This document shows, piece after piece, positions 29-32,867 of a stretch of DNA of 32,867 nucleotides; positions within the stretch are counted from its first letter, which is position 1; each line of letters opens with the position of its first letter. The position numbers were made by a program, and so were the translations under genes. Where the stretch lies: assembly GCA_019894885.1 (NCBI GenBank), contig JAGXNP010000013.1, positions 1 to 32,867 on the forward strand, in the 5' to 3' direction. The notes beneath the pieces are model-generated. The model did not search any database. It was not told the DNA's origin and worked only from the letters and a program-made list of their open reading frames with translations. Origin of the DNA: Promethearchaeota archaeon. GTDB lineage: Archaea > Asgardarchaeota > Lokiarchaeia > Sigyniarchaeales > SOKP01.

Positions 29-1162
29 ATGAATGACGATAACAACTCCTCTGTGTTAAAAGAGTGTATAGATTTTATTCAACAACGCAAACGAGAAATC
101 AAAATTGAAGATTCACCATTTACCGAAAGAGATAATGAAATAAGTTATGATATTGCAGAAGAGAGAATTTTTCCAATTCCGATCTGTGATGTATCGCGAA
201 AATTAGCCTTCGTAGATGGGGGAACTGCATCAATTTTGAGCGCAGCGGATTTTAATATTAGTTTGAATAGAGTTGCAGGAGTGCTATTTGAAGGAAACAA
301 AATTAAATCATCCAAGAAAACTCCTGAGGTTATAGAATTTTATACTGCAACGATCCTAGAGCCTATGATAGATGGAAAAATGGCATACAATATCCAAATA
401 TTTCCGAGAGAACCAAGATTTAAAGAATTCTTGCCAGACAAGGAAATTATTATACCTTTGAGTGAAGTAAGGGATTTAATAGGATTTCGATTTATGCCGA
501 ATATTGAGATTTTCGGTGGAGTTGCAATGAGGTTTGCAGAATGGACATACGCCACCAAACTTATTGAGTATGAACTGGATAAGGGAGATATATTTACACG
601 AGACGGATCGCTTCAAACAGGATATAAAGATGAAATCTTGTTAGTGAGAGAGTTACACTCGGCAGCCGAGGAGAAAAGTGTCTATATTACGGGACTCTCG
701 AAGACGTGTAGGTTGATTACAAAGAGTGGAGATTCCTTAATTTCATTAGTTGATATGATAGCAAGTAAAAAATATCCAGAAGAAAAATGGTATTTTCATC
801 CAATTTATAAAATAACTAGGGCGGATAATTTAGCAGACGTCTATTTCGTGAAACTTCATAAATTTGCCCGTTCACCTTTTAGGTTTGATATTTATTTGGA
901 CCAATCAGAAAAGTTAGATCAACAAGAAAAAGAAGTTATAATCTCAAATCTAGCCATAAATTCTACTGATTTATCGTTTCCAGGTTATCCGTATGGCTTA
1001 ATAAAGGTAGATCAATTGTCGAGAGTAGGTGCAAGGGAAATTGGCCCTCAAAAAATTCAGTTAATGTCTGAATTCGATTCGGATTTATATGCTAAATATA
1101 TTTTACCTCGCATTCGCTCTATCGATGCGCATGATTTATTAAATGCAATAAGAAAAAACTAG
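29..1162 (+). CDS. nurA: NurA-type 5'-3' DNA-end-resection nuclease
   Basis: 377 aa ORF with NurA-like N-terminal 'LAFVDGGTASILSAADFNISLNRVAG' and C-terminal 'FPGYPYGLIKVDQLSRVGAREI'; directly upstream of HerA. Confidence 0.88.
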   Translation: MNDDNNSSVLKECIDFIQQRKREIKIEDSPFTERDNEISYDIAEERIFPIPICDVSRKLAFVDGGTASILSAADFNISLNRVAGVLFEGNKIKSSKKTPEVIEFYTATILEPMIDGKMAYNIQIFPREPRFKEFLPDKEIIIPLSEVRDLIGFRFMPNIEIFGGVAMRFAEWTYATKLIEYELDKGDIFTRDGSLQTGYKDEILLVRELHSAAEEKSVYITGLSKTCRLITKSGDSLISLVDMIASKKYPEEKWYFHPIYKITRADNLADVYFVKLHKFARSPFRFDIYLDQSEKLDQQEKEVIISNLAINSTDLSFPGYPYGLIKVDQLSRVGAREIGPQKIQLMSEFDSDLYAKYILPRIRSIDAHDLLNAIRKN

Positions 1163-1217
1163 AAAAAAACAATGGAATAAAATTATAATTTTAAAATAAT
1201 TATGAGTGTAATAAAAA

Positions 1218-2807
1218 ATGACAGAATTAGGTAATAAAATAGGAAGTTTCGTGTCAGGGTCTTTTGCAAAATTAATGTTACGGCAAAAATCCGACGAAGA
1301 TTTTGAGATTGGAGAATTGATTGTCGCTGGAAAAAGTATGGAGGAATATTCAATCTTCCAGATTAAAGATCTATTCTACGGAAGCCAAATTCCTGATAGT
1401 TCTTTGGAGTTAATGGCAGGGTATGGATTGGAAAGAGAACGTTCAAATCTCAAAATTTACGAGCCCGAACTGAGAAATTACGTGCTTGCTCACGCAAGAG
1501 AATTAATTTCTGTTAGAAAAAATAAGGTCTTAGAAAAATATGAGCTTACAAGTCCCAAAAAATTACCCAAATTCTTCTCAGATGTTTTCGAATTAGAGGA
1601 ATCTCATCTTCAATTTTTTCAAGAAGAAGAGATTGAGACGCCATTAAATCTTGGTAAAGTGCGTTCCGGTTCTAAAGTCTTAGATATAAATGTAAAGGTT
1701 AATGCTACTGAGGTATTAAAACATCACATATTAATACCCGCAGCAACAGGAAGAGGTAAATCAAATTTAGTAAAAACAATGCTCTACGGTCTTTTGGATA
1801 ACGAAAAGTGTGGAAAATTAATATTTGACCCTCATAATGAATATTATGGAACAATAACTCAAAAGGGTTTGAGAGATCATCCAAGAAGTCCTGAATTCTT
1901 AGAATATTATACTATTAGAGATACATCAGGAGCTAACGATTTGAAATTTAATATGAATCTCATTAATCCAGCTCATATTATCGGGAGTATAGAGCTTACA
2001 GACGCCCAAAAACAAGCGATCGTAGTGTTTTATCGATCTGATAGAAAAAAGTGGATTCAAAATATATATGAAGATCACACTTTAGAAGAACTTAAAAAAA
2101 AAGGAATTCAACTTACAACTATCGAAGTTCTAAGGAGGAAGCTTGGTCTATTATTAAACCTTTATCTTGAAGACGACGGAACTCTAACCGAAAAAGGGAT
2201 CTACTCATCGAGTGGCTACGAGCAAACTACCCACGCTATAATAAGTTCTTTATCAAAAGGTAAAACAGTAATAATCGACACATCTTTATTAGAAGGTGCA
2301 GAAGAAATATTTATTGCATCTATTATCGTAGAAGGTGTTTTTAAAGAATATAAAAACCTTAAGTTTCAAGATAAATTACACGAAAGACCCGTTATTTCGA
2401 TCGTAATCGAAGAAGCTCCGCGTGTTATAGGAAAAAAAGTGTTAGAATCAATTGATAATGTCTTTGGAAAAATCGCACGAGAAGGAAGAAAATTTCAAAT
2501 TGGTCTTATTGCAATTACACAGCTTCCAAGTATAATCGATCGTGAAATATTGGCAAATATGAATACGAAAATTATTCTTGGTAACGAGATGGGTCCAGAA
2601 CGCAGGGCTTTAATTGATAGTGCTGCACAAGACTTATCGGATGATAATCAAGCAATCGGAAGTCTTGATAAAGGAGAGGCCATTGTTACATCTACCTTTA
2701 CTAAATTTGCAGTTCCAATTAGCATTCCTTTATTTGAAGATTTTATTAAGGAAGGTAAACAAAAACAAAATTCAAAAACTAAAATAGTATCGCCAGGATT
2801 TTCTTGA
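1218..2807 (+). CDS. herA: HerA hexameric DNA translocase/helicase
   Basis: Walker A '[13 protein letters not shown]', Walker B-like '[11 protein letters not shown]', '[27 protein letters not shown]' typical of HerA; next to nurA and mre11/rad50. Confidence 0.93.
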
Positions 2808-2835
2808 ATCTTAATTTAATAAAAAATAGGAAAAT

Positions 2836-4146
2836 GTGAAAAGGATGTTTGTAAAATTCGCCCATTTATCTGATTGTCATTTGGGAGCTTGGAGAAATGA
2901 GATATTAAATCAAATGGGATACGAAGCGTTCGAGCAGGCAATTAATAAAATTGCTGAAGAGGAAGTAGACTTTGTTATTATTAGTGGCGATTTATTTGAT
3001 ATAAGTAATCCAAAAGTAGATGTTGTGGATTTAGCTGTAAGGGAGTTAAAAAAATTACGCGATAAAAACATACCTGTCTATGGGATAATGGGCTCACATG
3101 ATTTTTCTCCATCCGATAATTCTATGATCCGTCCCTTAATTTCGGCAGGACTCTTTATTGACGTATCTAAAGGCGAACTCACGGATGATAAAAAATTAAA
3201 ATTACATTTTATCCAAGATTCAAAAACGGGTATAAAATTAACGGGATTACGAGCACGAAAAAGAAGTTTAGAAATCGAAGATTATAAGCGATTACTACGA
3301 GAAGATTTAGAGAACGAAAAAGGAATTAAAATATTTGTATTACACACTATGCTGAGCGAATTAAAACCAGTAGAATTCAAAGATATGGAATCTGCTCCTA
3401 AATCGCTATTACCCCAAGATTTTGCTTATTATGCCGGTGGCCATCTTCATAAGACTGTTCCTGAAAAATTACGAGAAGGAGATCACACTCTTATTGTTGA
3501 TCAAAGTAATAAAATTATTTATCCTGGATCGCTTTATCCAACGGATTTTCGCGAGCTTGAAAAATATCAATATGGTGGCTTCTGTATCGTTTCTGGAGAT
3601 ATTAACGTCGAATCTCAAAGTTCAGATTTTAAGATTACATTTATTCCAATAAAACCAAGAGAAATTCTTACACTGATAATTGATTGCACTAATAAAACTG
3701 CTATAGATGCTTTAGAACTTATTGACCAAAAAATTTCAGCTTTAAGTGCTGAAGATAAAATTGTAACAGTTCGAATTATAGGTTCGCTTACCTCTGGTAG
3801 AACGTATGAGATTAAATCAAACGAAATTGCAGAACAATTAAGAAATAAAGGAGCGCTTGAGGTATTAATAAATAAAAATGCTCTTACATCCAAAGAATAC
3901 GCTCCAATTAGCGTTGCAGTTGGAAAAACAAACAAGGAGATCGAAGAGGCGCTCATTCACGAACATGCTGAAAAAACCGATATGAAAAAAACATCTAAAA
4001 AAGACATGGAAAATAAAATCCATGGAATCTTAGGAGTATTAGGTACTGATAGAAAAGAAGGAACTCAAGTCAGAGAATATAACGAAGAACTGTTGCGTCA
4101 ATTTCTTAAGATTTTTGATTTAAATAAAACGGGGAAGAACCTATGA
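2836..4146 (+). CDS. mre11: Mre11 nuclease (DNA repair exonuclease)
   Basis: Metallophosphoesterase motifs DCHLG, GDLFD, GSHD, HTM, GHLH; the given start is GTG, with an alternative ATG at 2845 (MFVKFAHLSDCHLG). Confidence 0.93.
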   Translation: MKRMFVKFAHLSDCHLGAWRNEILNQMGYEAFEQAINKIAEEEVDFVIISGDLFDISNPKVDVVDLAVRELKKLRDKNIPVYGIMGSHDFSPSDNSMIRPLISAGLFIDVSKGELTDDKKLKLHFIQDSKTGIKLTGLRARKRSLEIEDYKRLLREDLENEKGIKIFVLHTMLSELKPVEFKDMESAPKSLLPQDFAYYAGGHLHKTVPEKLREGDHTLIVDQSNKIIYPGSLYPTDFRELEKYQYGGFCIVSGDINVESQSSDFKITFIPIKPREILTLIIDCTNKTAIDALELIDQKISALSAEDKIVTVRIIGSLTSGRTYEIKSNEIAEQLRNKGALEVLINKNALTSKEYAPISVAVGKTNKEIEEALIHEHAEKTDMKKTSKKDMENKIHGILGVLGTDRKEGTQVREYNEELLRQFLKIFDLNKTGKNL

Positions 4147-6227
4147 TTTTGGAATCGATTAAAATAGGGAATATTAGAAGTATCAAAAATTTAGATCTTA
4201 CTTTTCCCCGGTCAACAATGCTTTTTTATGGAGATATCGGTAGTGGAAAAAGTTCAGTTCTAAAGGCAATCGAATTTGCTTTATTTGGAACGCTAACGAG
4301 CGCCGATTTAAGTGGAGATTCTGTCTTACGTCGAGGTGAAAGCAGTGCGTCTGTAGAGTTAACATTTTTACTCGATAACGATAAATACGTAATAAAGAGA
4401 GGGCTTTCAAAAAATAAAAAGGGGAATGTTTCGCAGACAAAAGGTTCGTTAACGATAAACGAGAGCGAAACATCTTACGCGGCAACTGATCTACGTAGAA
4501 AGATTTTAGAAACGCTCAACTATTCAGTTACTCGATACGAACGGGCACAAAAAATTGATTTGTTTCGATATACGGTATATACCCCCCAAGAATCAGTAAA
4601 AGAGATTTTAGAAGCCGATCCAGATAAACGATTTGAAATTTTAAAGGATGTATTTGGTATTGAGAAATACGAAGTTGCTTTAAGAAATATCAAGATTATT
4701 GGCGATTTTTTACGAGACGATATTAAAGAGACTGAAATTCGAATCGGTCAATTTGAAGGAATCGAAGATCTGATTCCACAAAAAGAAATCGAACTAAGAG
4801 ACCAAGAGAGCAAAATTAGTGGTATGGAGAAGGAGAGCAAATTAAAACAAAACGAGGTTGATCTTGTTCAAAAGGATCTTAATGCCATAAAAACAAAAAA
4901 AGAAGATGTATCAAAGAAAATAATAGAACTGGATAGTAAAGAAGAGAAATTTAAAGAATATACTGAACTAAGAGAGCAACACGCTAAAGATCTAAACACT
5001 GCCCAGAATAACATTAAGGCGAACGAAGAAGAAGCTAAAAAAATTATATTAGCTGAACTGTCAATAGATTTAACTGAAGACCAGATACGTGAACAGATCT
5101 CTAAAACCCGAAAACAAATATCCGAAAAAGAAAAAAAGAGAGCAGTTATCGAACAAAAAATTAAAGATATTGACGAATTGTTAGAAAAAGGAAAATGTTC
5201 GTTATGCGGACAAGAAATTCACGAAGAGAAAAGATTTAGAGCAGAATTAAAGGACGAATTAGGAAAAGTTGAATCGTTTTCAAACGAAATAGATGTATCA
5301 TCAAAAAAAATTGACGTATTAGAAGTTAATCTGAAGGATTTACAAGAATTTACCGCAAATAAAAGCAAAATAGAATTATACGAAAAACTAGTAGAAGCGA
5401 GCAAAAGACAAGAGAAAGATAGTCAGAACAAACTCGACGAAATCATAAAAAAATTAGATCAGCTACAAAAAGATATAGATGGAATGTTAAAAGCTTTTAA
5501 AATTACTGATATAACAGAATTAAAAAAATTAGACTCGGAGATTAAAGAAAATCTAGAGTCTTTTGAAAAGAAGATAGAAGAATTGAAAGCCCAAAAAAAT
5601 GCTATTGAAATAGATTTAAGTGCTGAAAGGACAAAACAAGAGTATATGAAAAAAGAAGTTAACGAATTAAAAGCCGGATTAGAAGATAAGAAGAAATTAA
5701 AAGAGAAGCTGGAATACTCTACTGAAATAAAAAATTGGGTAAAAGATCAATTTCCTGTTTTACTAAGGGATATTGAAAGGCAGATATTAATTTCGAGCGC
5801 TCGCGATTTTAATGTGTTTTTTAAAGAATGGTTTAACGTCTTAGTTGAGGAAGGAAATATAGAAGTTGAGATTCGCCCCGACGATTTTCAGCCAATAATC
5901 AACGTTAACGGTTACGATTCTCCATTTCATGACCTATCAGGAGGAGAAAAGAGTGCAATATCGTTAGCTTACAGGTTAGGACTAACTAAAATCATTAACG
6001 AAAGATATCAAGACGTTAAAACTAAAGATTTATTAATTTTAGACGAACCCACCGATGGTTTTAGTCAACAGCAAGTCAACCGGATGCAAGAAATATTCGA
6101 TACACTCAATACAGCTCAGATGATAATCATTTCTCATGAAAGATCGCTGGATTCCTTTATAACAGACATTTTTACGTTCAAGAAGGGAAATCATCAAACA
6201 AAAGTGGTTAAAGAAACAATAGAATAA
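4143..6227 (+). CDS. rad50: Rad50 ATPase
   Basis: Walker A 'GDIGSGKSSVLKAIEFALFG', coiled coil with zinc-hook CSLC (5196-5207), ABC signature 'DLSGGEKSA', Walker B 'DLLILDEPTDGFS'; ATGA overlap with mre11. Confidence 0.95.
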   Translation: MILESIKIGNIRSIKNLDLTFPRSTMLFYGDIGSGKSSVLKAIEFALFGTLTSADLSGDSVLRRGESSASVELTFLLDNDKYVIKRGLSKNKKGNVSQTKGSLTINESETSYAATDLRRKILETLNYSVTRYERAQKIDLFRYTVYTPQESVKEILEADPDKRFEILKDVFGIEKYEVALRNIKIIGDFLRDDIKETEIRIGQFEGIEDLIPQKEIELRDQESKISGMEKESKLKQNEVDLVQKDLNAIKTKKEDVSKKIIELDSKEEKFKEYTELREQHAKDLNTAQNNIKANEEEAKKIILAELSIDLTEDQIREQISKTRKQISEKEKKRAVIEQKIKDIDELLEKGKCSLCGQEIHEEKRFRAELKDELGKVESFSNEIDVSSKKIDVLEVNLKDLQEFTANKSKIELYEKLVEASKRQEKDSQNKLDEIIKKLDQLQKDIDGMLKAFKITDITELKKLDSEIKENLESFEKKIEELKAQKNAIEIDLSAERTKQEYMKKEVNELKAGLEDKKKLKEKLEYSTEIKNWVKDQFPVLLRDIERQILISSARDFNVFFKEWFNVLVEEGNIEVEIRPDDFQPIINVNGYDSPFHDLSGGEKSAISLAYRLGLTKIINERYQDVKTKDLLILDEPTDGFSQQQVNRMQEIFDTLNTAQMIIISHERSLDSFITDIFTFKKGNHQTKVVKETIE

Positions 6228-16126: not shown

Positions 16127-16792
16127 CTATTTTTTTTTCCTTTTATTTTTCATTGCTAACTCCATTGTAAAATCTTTTGGGCATATGGCAGTTAATGGGC
16201 ATGAATCACATTTAGGATGAACAGGTAAACAAATTTCTTGACCAAATCGTACAAATAAGCGATTTACCCTAATCCACTGGCTTTTTGGCAGGATTTCTTT
16301 TAATCTTTTCTCAGTTTGCTCCGGTTTAGTTGTTTTAATCCATCCTAATCTATTTGGTATCCTATGTACATGCGTATCCACTGGGATTGCAGGAATATTA
16401 AATGCATATACCAACACACAATTCGCTGTTTTTGCGCCTACCCCTGGTAAAGAAACCAACTCGTTGAAATCACACGGTACTTTTCCCATATAATCTTCTG
16501 AAATGATCTGAGAGACTTCTTTTATACGAGCAGCTTTAACCTTATAAAATCCTGATTTACGCACTAATTTCTCTAGGATTTCAATATTTGCGTTAGAAAT
16601 ATCTCGTGGAGTTTTATATCTGGAAAATAAATTCTTGGTAACTTCTTCAGTGCTCGAATCTCTCGTTCTTGCAGAGAGAATTGTCGATATTAATATTTTA
16701 AAGGGATCATTTTTTTTCTTTGCTAATTGATCTAAATGTGCTTCTCCTTCTATAGATTTCTCTATTTCATCGAGAGTTTCTACATAATTCAT
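16127..16792 (-). CDS. nth: endonuclease III (DNA glycosylase/AP lyase)
   Basis: HhH 'LPGVGAKTANCVLV', 'VDTHVHRIPNRLGW', FeS cluster C-x6-C-x2-C-x5-C ('CLPVHPKCDSCPLTAIC'). Confidence 0.95.
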   Translation of the reverse strand: MNYVETLDEIEKSIEGEAHLDQLAKKKNDPFKILISTILSARTRDSSTEEVTKNLFSRYKTPRDISNANIEILEKLVRKSGFYKVKAARIKEVSQIISEDYMGKVPCDFNELVSLPGVGAKTANCVLVYAFNIPAIPVDTHVHRIPNRLGWIKTTKPEQTEKRLKEILPKSQWIRVNRLFVRFGQEICLPVHPKCDSCPLTAICPKDFTMELAMKNKRKKK

Positions 16793-16795
16793 AGC

Positions 16796-18217
16796 TTAGC
16801 TTGATTCATCGATTTTTTCGAAAACATAAATTTTTCTTTTGACAATTTGGCTTTTTTTAGCATCAAGGATTGATCTAACATGCTTTTGTTTAAATTGGAG
16901 CTTATTATTTGATTTGTTTACGATTCTATTTAAATCTAGCATTGGTACAAGTTTGAATTTGTAAAAGTTAGCCATTTCTTCTATTCTTAATTGTACCTCT
17001 CCTCCGTCGATAGTGCTAAAAACGGGTGCGATTATACTAATCCTACCCTTTGGAGCTAAAACTTTGAAACTTTCCCTAAAAGTGGCTTTGAATAATGGAT
17101 TTAATTTCGATTCAATCAAGTCAACAATTTCAGTATAATATGGTGTTTGCGTGTAAAATGGACCCAACTCTGGTTCGGTACAAATCCCGTCAAATCTTTC
17201 ATTCTTTAAAACTGAAGATAGTTGATTGATGTCAACTCTTTTAATTCTCTCGTTTAGCATATATGGCACTGTTTCTTCGAGTTCGTTTAATAACCAGTTT
17301 ATGTTTCTTTCAGTATTTTTCACTTTAGTTTCGTTAATGTCCGTTCCAAAAATTTGAAAGTCTTCAATCAAGGCAAATAATAATATAGTCCCATTTCCAA
17401 CAAATGGATCCAGAATTATTTTCTTCTCTCTCTGTTCAAATAAATTTAGAAAGTTTAACATTATGAGAGACAATTTTGGTGAAATTGCGCTTTTAAACTC
17501 TTTAAACGGTTTTTCTTCATCAACGTGTTTTTTGAAGCTAGGATCGTCGCAAGTAAGCGTTCTAGCAATGTAAAAACCTTCCTCTGTGAATCCGAATATA
17601 ATCTCAGCTCGGTCCTTATTAAACAAACCGTATTTAATAATATGATGAGGGAATATTGGGTTTAAATTACCTGCGTCAATATTTTCTTGAGGGTATTTAT
17701 AATATAAGGATTTCTTAGCACCATTTTCTTTTAATAAGGTCATGATTTCTTTATTTAAAAACGGTAGGAAGTGTTTTAGGAGCACTTCAGAATAATAATT
17801 ATCGTCATAGAGATTAGGGTAAATTGAAACAGCAAAAAATAAACTTTCCCTTCTAATACTAGGAAAAACCTTTTTTAAAGATGAGTCGATAACTTTAAGA
17901 ATCTCTTTCCTCTTTACTTCGATCTGCTTATACTTTTCGATTTGTAATGGAAACGCAAAATGCACGGTTTGGATGTCAATAAAATCATAAATTTCGGCGA
18001 TTTTTTGGCATCCGCCTAGAATGTATTGAAGCTCCATTAGTTTATTAATGTATAATCTAACTTCATGCAAATCATCGAATTCTACAATGGCAACATTCGC
18101 CGAATAATCTGTAATTCGACCTTTAAACTGTATTGAATTTTTCAATACATGATCTAATTCAGCTAAGGATAAAAGCCAGTTTTTTCCTAAAACAAATAGA
18201 AAGCGATTCATTATCAA
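16796..18217 (-). CDS. Trm11-like SAM-dependent RNA methyltransferase family protein
   Basis: 'ILDPFVGNGTILLFALIEDFQIFGTDINETKVKNTERNINWLL', 'RFDGICTEPELGPFYTQTPYY', 'GRISIIAPVFSTIDG'; N-terminal 'LFVLGKNWLLSLAEL' typical of Trm11 relatives. Confidence 0.78.
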   Translation of the reverse strand: MIMNRFLFVLGKNWLLSLAELDHVLKNSIQFKGRITDYSANVAIVEFDDLHEVRLYINKLMELQYILGGCQKIAEIYDFIDIQTVHFAFPLQIEKYKQIEVKRKEILKVIDSSLKKVFPSIRRESLFFAVSIYPNLYDDNYYSEVLLKHFLPFLNKEIMTLLKENGAKKSLYYKYPQENIDAGNLNPIFPHHIIKYGLFNKDRAEIIFGFTEEGFYIARTLTCDDPSFKKHVDEEKPFKEFKSAISPKLSLIMLNFLNLFEQREKKIILDPFVGNGTILLFALIEDFQIFGTDINETKVKNTERNINWLLNELEETVPYMLNERIKRVDINQLSSVLKNERFDGICTEPELGPFYTQTPYYTEIVDLIESKLNPLFKATFRESFKVLAPKGRISIIAPVFSTIDGGEVQLRIEEMANFYKFKLVPMLDLNRIVNKSNNKLQFKQKHVRSILDAKKSQIVKRKIYVFEKIDESS

Positions 18218-18285: not shown

Positions 18286-19566
18286 TTAGTCTTTACCTAA
18301 TACATATCGAATTATACGTATTATGTCAGCTTTACGACTATTGGGGGGCAGATTTATATCGTTAGTAGTGCAATAATTTTTCAATTCCTTAACGGTTAGA
18401 CTATTTAAATCCTCAGGTAAGTCACCTATTAGATCAGCATTAACTCGAACTTTTTTGTCTGTTTCTTCGCTGGAATCTTCATTATCTCCAGTTATAGTGC
18501 GCTCATATTTTTCACCTGAGATATTTTCAATTGCACTTATGATAGAGTCCAGATCTTCTTTCTTTCTTTTCGGGAGCAGAGATATAACCTCTTCCTCTTC
18601 TGGTTCTTTAATTTTTGTTTTCTGTTCTCGTTTCCTTTGATACTTCTCATGTTGTAAGGTTTCCATTTCTTTCATTACAGTCTGATAATTATCTTTAAAA
18701 TATTTCAAACTAATATTTATTATATCTGAGAGATTATCCCATCTTTTCTTTTTAACTATTGATTCTCCCCAATGGAATAAATCTCTCTGTAAATCTATAG
18801 TGACTACTTTACCTTCATATGTTATATCTAAAGTAAGCCACCTTAGGATATTTGCTATTATAATGTCATTATCAAATGCAGAAAACCCGTACTCTCTTCC
18901 TAGAGAAGAGAAGATAGATAAAGTACCGAACGCTGCGACCTGACCGCTGTGATATTCTGAGGTTATAAGTAATGGAACTTTAGGACAATCTTCTTCAATC
19001 CATTTTTCTCCATCAAATCGGTTTCTCCAGCAATTCAGACCCCCTCTTACAATGACTTCGACTTTTACATTTTTTTCTGCCTTTGGCAGTTTAAGCGTTC
19101 CTAAAGAGCAGGCACTTGATAAAATTATTTTTTTAATATTTTCAGTGATATAGTGCGGTGTAAAATTAACGATCATTGGTCTTTTTTGCATATTAACATA
19201 ATTTACAGAATCAAAAATTTCATCATCTATAAATTCAAAACCGAAAAACCTGGTTAATTCGTTAATATTAGTTCTATTTATGTGTTCTCCACCCCTCGAG
19301 CCAACGATTAGTAAACTTCCACCCTCTCTAACATATTCCTCTAATACTTCTATTTCTCGTGGACTAAGATTAACATTTTTAGGTATAGACATTATGATGG
19401 CATTATAATTTTTGATTTTGTCTAATGAATGGAATCCAGCTTCAATTTTCCCTAATTTGTAAGCTGAAGTGAACAGGAACTGAGTGAAATCAGCATAACT
19501 CGAAGCCTCTAAGGTTAACATATTATTATGGCTATAATCAAGACCAACTGTAATGTCACTTTTCAT
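18286..19566 (-). CDS. GIFT/IFT52-like (glutamine-amidotransferase-like fold) domain protein with C-terminal SAP domain
   Basis: 'AIIMSIPKNVNLSPREIEVLEEYVREGGSLLIVGSRGGEHINRTNINELTRFFGFEFIDDEIFDSVNY' and 'GQVAAFGTLSIFSS...DNDIIIANILRWLTLDI' follow the GIFT-domain layout; C-terminal 'LTVKELKNYCTTNDINLPPNSRKADIIRIIRYVLG' is SAP-like. Confidence 0.7.
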   Translation of the reverse strand: MKSDITVGLDYSHNNMLTLEASSYADFTQFLFTSAYKLGKIEAGFHSLDKIKNYNAIIMSIPKNVNLSPREIEVLEEYVREGGSLLIVGSRGGEHINRTNINELTRFFGFEFIDDEIFDSVNYVNMQKRPMIVNFTPHYITENIKKIILSSACSLGTLKLPKAEKNVKVEVIVRGGLNCWRNRFDGEKWIEEDCPKVPLLITSEYHSGQVAAFGTLSIFSSLGREYGFSAFDNDIIIANILRWLTLDITYEGKVVTIDLQRDLFHWGESIVKKKRWDNLSDIINISLKYFKDNYQTVMKEMETLQHEKYQRKREQKTKIKEPEEEEVISLLPKRKKEDLDSIISAIENISGEKYERTITGDNEDSSEETDKKVRVNADLIGDLPEDLNSLTVKELKNYCTTNDINLPPNSRKADIIRIIRYVLGKD

Positions 19567-23334: not shown

Positions 23335-24192
23335 TCATTTTTTATGTACTTTTATATCAAATACAACATGGTATAAACCAGGACCGTAACTTTTTACAAA
23401 TCTTTTTGTTAATAAATCGCATTTGTAATCATTTCTTTCCGCGATTTCTTTAAACTCATTAAACAACCCTAAGTACTTTTCTTTGTCTACAATTCCCTCA
23501 TAATGATAAATCGTACCTTCAGCTTTTGCTAAGGTTAACGCTTCGTTTATGAAGTCTTTTGGGGCGGGAAATACTCCCATAATAACACGATCAGCTTTAA
23601 GCCCAGATTTACTCAGTTTTATTACTTCAATCTTACTATCTCCTTTTATCGGAGTAATAATGTTCTCACAATGATTAAGCTCTATATTCTCATTTAAATA
23701 GTTAAATGAATCAGGGTTCAACTCTATACTAAAAATCTTTTTAGGTTTTGAGTGTTTTGCTATGGGTAAAGAAAAATAACCTATACCAGCGAACATATCA
23801 ACAATTATCTCGCCTTCTTTTACTAAAGTTGCTAGGAATTTCCTTTCGCTTAGATTTCCCATACTAAACATTATCTTAGTAAAATCAAATTTATAGATCA
23901 CTCCATGTTCTTTATGTTTAATAATAGAATTTTTGACACCAACTAAATATTCTATCTTTTCCGGAGTTCTAAATTGCCCTTTTACCCTTCCCGAGTTCAA
24001 ATAAACTGATTTAATGCTTGGTAATAATTCTAAATATTTTTCGCCAATTTTTTTTTTTTTCCCCATTAATTTAGGATTTAATTTAATAATTACTACATTA
24101 CCAATTGTCTGAAATCCGCGGGGTAAAAGCAGTAATTCCTCATCTGATAAAGTTCCGATTAAAACATCTTTGAGTTTAGTTTTAAATCCCAT
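23335..24192 (-). CDS. Taw2/Trm5-family class I SAM-dependent tRNA-modifying enzyme (Taw2 favoured)
   Basis: 'IVDMFAGIGYFSLPIAKHSKPKKIFSIELNPDSFNYLNENIELNH' and 'RVIMGVFPAPKDFINEALTLAKAEGTIYHYE'; lacks the NPPY-type motif expected of Trm5. Confidence 0.82.
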   Translation of the reverse strand: MGFKTKLKDVLIGTLSDEELLLLPRGFQTIGNVVIIKLNPKLMGKKKKIGEKYLELLPSIKSVYLNSGRVKGQFRTPEKIEYLVGVKNSIIKHKEHGVIYKFDFTKIMFSMGNLSERKFLATLVKEGEIIVDMFAGIGYFSLPIAKHSKPKKIFSIELNPDSFNYLNENIELNHCENIITPIKGDSKIEVIKLSKSGLKADRVIMGVFPAPKDFINEALTLAKAEGTIYHYEGIVDKEKYLGLFNEFKEIAERNDYKCDLLTKRFVKSYGPGLYHVVFDIKVHKK

Positions 24193-30635: not shown

Positions 30636-31544
30636 TTAATGATTTATAATAACTTCATAAGAATGCTGTTCAAACAAATTAGCTATTCTTTCTAGATTTT
30701 CATCGGGAAAATCTCCCATATCCTTATATAAGTCTCCCATTCCAACTTTCTCATACTTAGTTTTCGTTAATTTATTATAGGGCATTAAATGTATTTGACC
30801 CTTGTAATTAATTTTTTGTAAAAAGGTTATTATATGTTGAATTGTGCTTACATCTGTATTAACTCCCGGGATTAAAGGGATTCGGGGTATAATTCTTTCA
30901 CTTCCAACTTTGGAGAGAATTTTAGAGAAGTTTGTAAGAATCTTTTCATTAAATACATCAGTAAATTCCTTATGTTTTTCACTATCAATTAATTTGATAT
31001 CAAATAGAAATAAATCTACATATTTCACTAATTCGCTAGTAAAATCTTCATTAAAGTAGCCACATGTTTCCAATGCCGTGTGTATCCCTTGTTTTTTTAA
31101 TGCTTTAAGCAATTCTAAAAGATAATTGATTTGCATGGTAGGTTCTCCTCCAGAAATAGTTGCTCCTCCACCAGAATTATCGTAAAAAGGTTTATCCTTT
31201 AATACAAATTCTACCAGTCCTTCCACGGAGCTCTCTCTACCAATAATTTCCATTACTTGATTCGGGCATATTTCAGAGCATTTTCCACACATAGTACAGA
31301 GGGCTTTATCTCTCTTAATTTCGTCATTTAATAACTGAAGAGCATTATTAGGGCACGCATTAACGCAAATTTCACATAGTTGACATTTTTCTTTAAAATA
31401 AGACATTTCAGGGGATAATTTTTGCGACTCGGGATTTTGGCACCATTTACACCTTAGAGGGCAACCCTTCAAGAAAATTATCGTTCTAATACCAGGGCCA
31501 TCATATATTGCATAATTTTGAATATCAAATATAATTCCGTTCAT
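30636..31544 (-). CDS. glycyl-radical enzyme activating protein (radical SAM, PflA/YjjW-like, two extra 4Fe-4S ferredoxin motifs)
   Basis: 'GPGIRTIIFLKGCPLRCKWC' (CxxxCxxC), 'CQLCEICVNACP' and 'CTMCGKCSEICP' ferredoxin motifs, 'GGGATISGGEPTMQ'. Confidence 0.95.
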   Translation of the reverse strand: MNGIIFDIQNYAIYDGPGIRTIIFLKGCPLRCKWCQNPESQKLSPEMSYFKEKCQLCEICVNACPNNALQLLNDEIKRDKALCTMCGKCSEICPNQVMEIIGRESSVEGLVEFVLKDKPFYDNSGGGATISGGEPTMQINYLLELLKALKKQGIHTALETCGYFNEDFTSELVKYVDLFLFDIKLIDSEKHKEFTDVFNEKILTNFSKILSKVGSERIIPRIPLIPGVNTDVSTIQHIITFLQKINYKGQIHLMPYNKLTKTKYEKVGMGDLYKDMGDFPDENLERIANLFEQHSYEVIINH

Positions 31545-31552
31545 AAAACTCT

Positions 31553-32867
31553 TTAAACCATAGTATGTTCAGTTCTCGAAATGATTTCGTCCTGAATTTC
31601 TTTTCCTAAGTCAGTAAAATAAGCAGAGTACCCCCCTACTTTAACAATAATATTTCGATAGCTTTTAGGCTTTATCTGTGCTGCTTTTAAAACATCGGTC
31701 GATACTACAGTAGGTTGGAGTTGTTCTCCCCCTAATTGAAAGTAAGTTTTTATTAACGAAATCCATTTTTTCTTAGATTCTTCAGATTTTCCGATTCCTG
31801 AGGGATGCATCCTAATATTAACTGCACATCCCATTACATGTTCGTATTCTAATGCTGATACAGAGCGCAATACTCCTGTAGGACCATGCTTCTCGACATT
31901 GTAGGGATTACAACTAGCAGCAAATGGTCGACCTCCTAACCTTCCATCAGGGGTTGCTATTGAAATTCTCCCATCATAAGTATGGGTTGTCATACTATTA
32001 ATAAAAGGTGCATAAAATCCATCTCTATAAGTTTTGTATTTGTAAGTCTCATTAAACATATGAGAAGTTACCTTTCTAGCAAGTTCATCTGACTCGGGAT
32101 TGCCATTACCCCATTTTCCATCTAAGTCCAATATTAACTTGTGGATATGTTCATATCCATTACTAAAATTATTATCAATCGCATTAATCAAGTCTTTGAA
32201 AGTGAATTTCTTTTGTTCAAAAATTAGATTTTTAATAACATAGAGCGAATCAATAGTGTTAGCAATACTTGTCATAAATAGAATGCCTTCGCAATCGTAA
32301 ATAGCACCTCCCTCAGTTATATCTCTTTTATTCTCAAGACAACCTTGCATAAAAGCTGAAATGTATGGAGCTGGGAGATATTCAGCGTATAATCTATCGC
32401 GAATTGTAGAGCCTTCAACGATTTTCTTAATCATAAAATCAGACTGAGCGAAAAAACCATCTAAAAACTCCTCAAAATTAGAGAATTTATCGGGATCCCC
32501 TGTTTTTAAACCAGCATTCTTGACCAACCCTACTAAGGTTTGCGAATCGCCATTTCTTAACGCTAAATCAAGCGTTCTGCACAATAATATTGAAGAAAAT
32601 CCTTCTCCTCCTGTCTTTCCTGGACTGCACATGTCTACACAACCTGTAACGGCGTATCCATTCGCATCTTCCTGAGTAAATCCTCTATTCAATAAAGCCT
32701 GAAGGCAAATCTCATCGTTCATTAATGATACGCTAGAGACTCCATGGTAATGTAAATCTGCAACTTTCAATAATAGTTTTTCAGGGCTATTTTTATGTAT
32801 ACGCACAGCAAAATTTAATGAAGCTTTCGAACGATCAACTGCTTCTAGCATAACATATGTCAGTTCG
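31553..32867 (-). CDS. glycyl radical enzyme (PFL/glycerol-dehydratase superfamily), C-terminal part; N-terminus lies beyond the window
   Basis: 'GCVDMCSPGKTGGEG' (Cys loop), 'TPDGRLGGRPFAASCNPYNVEKHGPTGVLRSV', C-terminal Gly-radical motif 'VKVGGYSAYFTDLGKEIQDEIISRTEH'. The reading frame stays open past the called Met (ELTYV|MLEAVD), so the 32851 start is internal. Confidence 0.93.
   Translation of the reverse strand, partial: ELTYVMLEAVDRSKASLNFAVRIHKNSPEKLLLKVADLHYHGVSSVSLMNDEICLQALLNRGFTQEDANGYAVTGCVDMCSPGKTGGEGFSSILLCRTLDLALRNGDSQTLVGLVKNAGLKTGDPDKFSNFEEFLDGFFAQSDFMIKKIVEGSTIRDRLYAEYLPAPYISAFMQGCLENKRDITEGGAIYDCEGILFMTSIANTIDSLYVIKNLIFEQKKFTFKDLINAIDNNFSNGYEHIHKLILDLDGKWGNGNPESDELARKVTSHMFNETYKYKTYRDGFYAPFINSMTTHTYDGRISIATPDGRLGGRPFAASCNPYNVEKHGPTGVLRSVSALEYEHVMGCAVNIRMHPSGIGKSEESKKKWISLIKTYFQLGGEQLQPTVVSTDVLKAAQIKPKSYRNIIVKVGGYSAYFTDLGKEIQDEIISRTEHTMV

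Follow-up and report, generated by a model that had tools for sequence, protein, structure and literature searches.

The window analysed here is a 32,867-nucleotide contig stretch from a Lokiarchaeial MAG, closest among named genomes to Candidatus Lokiarchaeia/Lokiarchaeota MAGs. On its reverse strand lies a gene with an ATG start (18286..19566) that encodes a 426-amino-acid protein, made up of an N-terminal GIFT domain (residues 1-247; 18826..19566), a helical segment (residues 261-350; 18517..18786), an acidic linker modelled with low confidence (residues 351-384; 18415..18516) and a genus-specific tail with an HeH/SAP-like helix-loop-helix (residues 385-426; 18289..18414). Directly downstream, after a 68-bp gap and on the same strand, is a gene for a Trm11/Trm-G10-type tRNA methyltransferase-like protein (16796..18217), followed, as the third gene of the cluster, by one for an endonuclease III-like (Nth) HhH-GPD glycosylase (16127..16792); upstream, again on the reverse strand, a Taw2/Trm5-like tRNA position-37 modification enzyme is encoded (23335..24192).

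The open reading frame was confirmed to be a real, conserved Lokiarchaeial protein. Orthologs are found throughout the genus (57-85% identity) and across the family and order (~29-58%), and the reading frame is under purifying selection, given a dN/dS of 0.16-0.19 for its whole length and 0.11-0.12 in the GIFT part (the first 250 residues), both against two 85%-identical orthologs. An alignment of 25 orthologs retained two motifs, GG(S)LLI...GG(D/E)...TN(I/L)N and SIFSSLGxEYGF...DN..IANIL.WL, as well as six invariant polar residues (D10, H13, N15, N100, H138 and C153); the motifs on which a first-pass annotation of this DNA had been based are thus present in the protein and conserved among its relatives.

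That annotation had likened the N-terminal ~250 amino acids to the GIFT domain of the intraflagellar transport (IFT) subunit IFT52, a component of the cargo trains of eukaryotic cilia, and both profiles and predicted structure bear this out, the assignment to a GIFT domain being beyond chance. The Pfam model IFT52_GIFT (PF23355) matched the window protein at 34.1 bits (curated cut-off 27.2; E 1.9e-8), aligning to residues 47-124 only. In searches of the PDB, IFT52 was found at E 1.9e-9 with the single protein as phmmer query and at E 2e-15 with a profile of the 25 orthologs, for which the next natural protein was 2gk3 (GATase-like) at E 0.0016. The GIFT blocks of an AlphaFold2 model were mostly at pLDDT 67-95, and Foldseek placed IFT52 N-terminal domains at all of ranks 1-5 against the PDB (E 1e-14 to 6e-12; TM on target 0.73-0.85), followed by ThuA/GATase-like proteins from E 3e-9 (TM ~0.6). 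A generic DUF4350 or ThuA identity, the outcome that would have spoken against an IFT52-like domain, was rejected as weaker both by profile (13.5 bits for DUF4350) and by fold (E 4e-9 for a ThuA-like match).

For the bacterial gliding protein GldG, the family model ABC_transp_aux (PF09822) matched 25/25 orthologs at E<=0.1, but in the window protein it scored 29.9 bits, under its curated cut-off of 34.7. At E<=1e-8 the IFT52 model matched 14/25 orthologs and the GldG model 13/25, and because the two models match equally across this set, the GIFT domain of the window group does not lean strongly in sequence towards IFT52 rather than GldG.

Beyond the GIFT domain, the helical segment is delimited by alignment blocks (SLKYFKDNY and RKKEDL..IISAIE.ISGEKYE) and predicted helices, and the linker by pLDDT values below 50 at residues 355-380. 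In the tail, helices are predicted at residues 392-401 and 412-425, within a helix-loop-helix block (392-425) of pLDDT ~80-84. The Pfam HeH model reached E 0.0012 in the window protein (18.9 bits, under the cut-off of 28.9), and among the 25 orthologs HeH was matched in 6 (E 4e-5 in the best of them) and SAP in 4. The SAP-like C-terminus described at first is real but weak by itself: the helix-loop-helix is predicted and occurs in 19/19 same-genus orthologs, and the model matches are weak. It was found in no other genus among the orthologs compared, so a SAP fusion as a broader Asgard feature, for which a survey had been suggested, was rejected.

Other genera of the family mostly end in a different module, GKxAIWxGKxTxxFxxWL, for which a search of the PDB gave nothing credible and which shows no detectable homology with the HeH/SAP-like tail (hhalign probability 0.2%). 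Some proteins have neither module, among them the core orthologs at loci L077, L079, L081 and L082, so the core function does not depend on the tail. Both modules are mobile within the Lokiarchaeia and recur in other proteins. An HeH/SAP-like module closely similar to that of the window gene is found in the topoisomerase VI B subunit (L153, L147), and gelsolin-like Lokiarchaeial proteins carry C-terminal SAP/HeH/Ish1-like modules, some in tandem (L146, L148, L149, L151). The C-terminal end of Lokiarchaeial RNA polymerase A' has a GKxAIWRGKxTxxYxxWK-like module (L132, L136, L138, L134, L135), which also occurs in response regulators and in GIFT proteins from other genera. Nucleic-acid binding by the tail seems likely; recurrence of tail-type modules in topoisomerase VI B (L153) and RNA polymerase A' (L132) is consistent with work on nucleic acids, although presence of a SAP-like module in gelsolin-like proteins (L149) means that such a module need not bind them.

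The window protein belongs to a larger set of Asgard GIFT proteins. PF23355 exceeded its cut-off in 140/149 Asgard genomes versus 0/14 control genomes, which were the sole representatives of non-Asgard prokaryotes. The window's own genome encodes at least four GIFT proteins: the window gene product, a 307-amino-acid protein (contig C110), a 457-amino-acid protein (contig C205, 7300-8681; L092:3300-4673 in the locus set) and a divergent one on contig C33. The 457-amino-acid protein is this genome's copy of a paralog, here termed group B, whose members occur across Asgard lineages. All 21 group B members compared matched IFT52_GIFT at E<=1e-8 (best 1.3e-28), and 3/21 matched ABC_transp_aux. The match of a group B profile to IFT52 spanned both domain halves (E 9e-27), and a group B model matched IFT52 structures at E 4e-19, with TM on target up to 0.92 and an rmsd of 1.8 A. 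The group B protein contains a long disordered stretch and, at its C-terminus, a coiled coil instead of the SAP-like tail; homology with the window protein extends across residues 1-250 (E 9e-43, hhalign probability 100).

In a tree from which long-branch rows had been removed and in which IFT52 was represented by two fragments and no outgroup was included, IFT52 fell on the group B side (branch 100/99); under the same conditions a clade of IFT52 with the window group was marginally rejected (p-AU 0.043) and one of IFT52 with all Loki-type rows was not rejected (p 0.256). The two fragments were mouse and Chlamydomonas GIFT sequences taken from PDB alignments and joined with short same-chain segments, and, with no bacterial outgroup, the placement is provisional. 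Eight long-branch GIFT-like sequences of unsure placement (L040, L042, L044, L059, L063, L106, L107 and L122) were omitted from this second tree, one of them (L063) having met IFT52 directly. Sequence profiles, structural models and the provisional tree show group B to be a closer relative of IFT52 than the window group is, and the window gene is a Lokiarchaeia-restricted side branch, one of several GIFT paralogs. The early view of the window gene as the informative relative of IFT52 was not supported, group B being the better candidate (E 9e-27, TM 0.92), with the window group showing p 0.043 in the tree test and 14 versus 13 matches to the two models.

Two further observations concern the surroundings of GIFT paralogs. 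In one family (f4; L104, L105, L108), two related proteins that match TPR/MIT models (tested in L104) directly flank a short GIFT paralog; this arrangement is a possible parallel to eukaryotic IFT52, the central disordered region of which threads through the TPR proteins IFT88/IFT70. Genes for Ras/Rab-like small GTPases also adjoin GIFT paralogs, at a distance of 3 bases in one case (L106:1995-2537) and downstream in two others (L100 and L102).

The best functional clue for the window protein is an order-wide tRNA-modification gene cluster, with the conserved order Taw2/Trm5-like enzyme, GIFT protein, Trm11-like methyltransferase, endonuclease III. The Trm11-like protein matched an N2,N2-dimethylguanosine tRNA methyltransferase (PDB 5e71, E 2e-6) and TIGR01177 (E 3.5e-11, under cut-off), the endonuclease III-like protein matched Pfam HhH-GPD (E 9e-29), and the Taw2/Trm5-like protein, also placed by synteny, matched Pfam TRM5-TYW2 (E 1.6e-50) and a Taw2 model (E 2e-58, under the equivalog cut-off). 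A Trm11-like gene lies directly downstream of the GIFT gene on the same strand in 42/51 loci, the two reading frames overlapping by 1 base in two genomes (L081, L082), and endonuclease III usually comes after it where the contig reaches, an order kept in relatives. Outside the window's genus, the Taw2/Trm5-like gene is directly upstream of the GIFT gene in 26/31 loci; within the genus, inserted genes part the two. The neighbours in the conserved cluster are tRNA and DNA enzymes, with no ABC-transporter genes among them, and a plasmid tblastn search gave one weak match. Between the possibilities raised by the first-pass annotation, an unrelated, nucleic-acid-linked use of the fold fits this cluster better than a forerunner of the IFT machinery does. 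Elsewhere in the window, NurA-, HerA-, Mre11- and Rad50-like genes stand in a row (29-6227) as an ordinary archaeal end-resection cluster, and a glycyl-radical-enzyme-like protein, its gene cut by the contig end, has a radical-SAM activating-enzyme-like neighbour (30636-32866), all of these being named from sequence.

Because of the order-wide gene clustering, we propose that the window protein is a scaffold that cooperates with enzymes modifying tRNA (or DNA). Our main reading, to which we give slightly less than even odds (a probability of about 0.45), is that the gene encodes a soluble, order-restricted paralog within the Asgard GIFT family, of which eukaryotic IFT52 is also a member, and that its product acts in RNA modification as a non-catalytic scaffold or as a subunit delivering the substrate, rather than as part of a transport train. 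The GIFT domain would serve as a non-catalytic protein-interaction platform, by analogy with IFT52; the helical segment would contact the co-encoded methyltransferase; and the HeH/SAP tail (in other genera, the GKxAIWxGKxTxxFxxWL module) would hold the nucleic-acid substrate, most likely tRNA. Against a scaffold, gene order shows co-occurrence rather than physical interaction, and the Trm11-like gene no longer adjoins the GIFT gene in family f2; against a non-catalytic role, the invariant D10, H13, N100, H138 and C153 may leave catalysis possible.

This last point bears on the idea of the GIFT domain as an enzyme or small-molecule binder with a class I amidotransferase/ThuA/GH42-like fold, in which the conserved DYSHNN motif, GGD/E and TNLN would surround a pocket. 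The six polar residues invariant in 25 orthologs, the ThuA and GH42 domains among the Foldseek neighbours and the recurrence of much of the D, H, GGD, N pattern in the Asgard-wide group B would all suit such a role. We nevertheless consider it unlikely, given that all 25 orthologs lack, behind the GGSLLI strand, the nucleophile-elbow Cys of the Cys-His-Glu triad of class I glutamine amidotransferases, that no catalytic-family Pfam model reaches its cut-off in the window protein and that the fold serves non-catalytic purposes in GH42 and IFT52. A module for DNA repair or genome maintenance, with the GIFT protein bridging DNA through its SAP-like tail and working with endonuclease III, would account for Nth following in the cluster, for the similar module in topoisomerase VI B and for the NurA/HerA/Mre11/Rad50-like genes ~12-19 kb away within the window, and HeH/SAP modules are classically DNA-binding. 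It is made doubtful by the nearest and most constant neighbours, which are tRNA-modifying enzymes rather than Nth, and by families f2 and f3, where the Taw2/Trm5-like adjacency persists though Nth is not next.

Very improbable, in our judgement, is a strict archaeal IFT52, that is, a pre-ciliary transport or scaffold part co-opted by eukaryotes for IFT-B. Such an identity would agree with a GIFT domain that is most like IFT52 among solved structures, with the PF23355 score above cut-off and with the GG(D/E)..TN(I/L)N block common to IFT52 and the Asgard proteins, but Itf52_C and IFT46 (PF12317) each exceeded their cut-offs in 0/149 Asgard genomes, the clade of IFT52 with the window group was marginally rejected (p 0.043), the sister paralog group B is much closer to IFT52 and the genes clustered with the window gene are those of tRNA modification.

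Of greater interest than the window gene itself are the Asgard-wide sister group B and the tRNA-modification cluster. A broader scenario, which we offer tentatively and place on the unlikely side of possible, is that the GIFT family had diversified already in Asgard archaea, with group B (GIFT domain, disordered stretch, coiled coil) as the direct forerunner of IFT52, and with the window gene as a parallel recruitment to tRNA modification by way of a swapped-in nucleic-acid-binding tail. If so, a central IFT-B1 subunit would have archaeal roots older than cilia. A GIFT family that occurs in 140/149 Asgard genomes and has IFT52 as its best match would open the origin of an IFT core subunit to testing, and the link between GIFT scaffold and tRNA methyltransferase, kept across the order, predicts a concrete complex. 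The open literature yielded no paper pairing IFT52 with Asgard archaea, most subscription journals and preprints lying outside its scope, which leaves novelty unproven; there are zero mentions of IFT or cilia in Eme et al. 2023 (PMC10307638) or in a 2026 review (PMC12993045).

Among known systems, ThuA, GATase1-like proteins, DUF4350 and OST48_N share the wider fold with the window protein and resemble it more weakly in sequence and structure. GldG (ABC_transp_aux) belongs to the same GIFT superfamily, and the GIFT domain and its link to GldG have reportedly long been known from the work of Beatson and Ponting in 2004; unlike GldG, the window protein falls under the PF09822 cut-off and is encoded in a cluster without ABC-transporter genes. 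IFT52 (PF23355; 5fmr, 5fms, 8bd7), which has a scaffold role as the centre of IFT-B1 assembly and whose GIFT domain is named as such (PMC10191852), is the best match by profile and fold, sharing with the window protein the GIFT fold, its core motif and an order in which the GIFT domain precedes low-confidence and helical segments. The window protein differs from it in its HeH/SAP-like tail, its tRNA-modification gene neighbourhood, a profile similarity to GldG about as great as that to IFT52 and the absence of Itf52_C, the IFT46-pairing C-terminal domain (Pfam, E up to 10), and on account of this absence, together with that of Itf52_C and IFT46 across the 149 Asgard genomes, it is not classed as IFT52. 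Group B, homologous to the window protein over residues 1-250, differs from it in a match to IFT52 that takes in both domain halves and in continuing into a disordered stretch and a coiled coil in place of the SAP-like tail.
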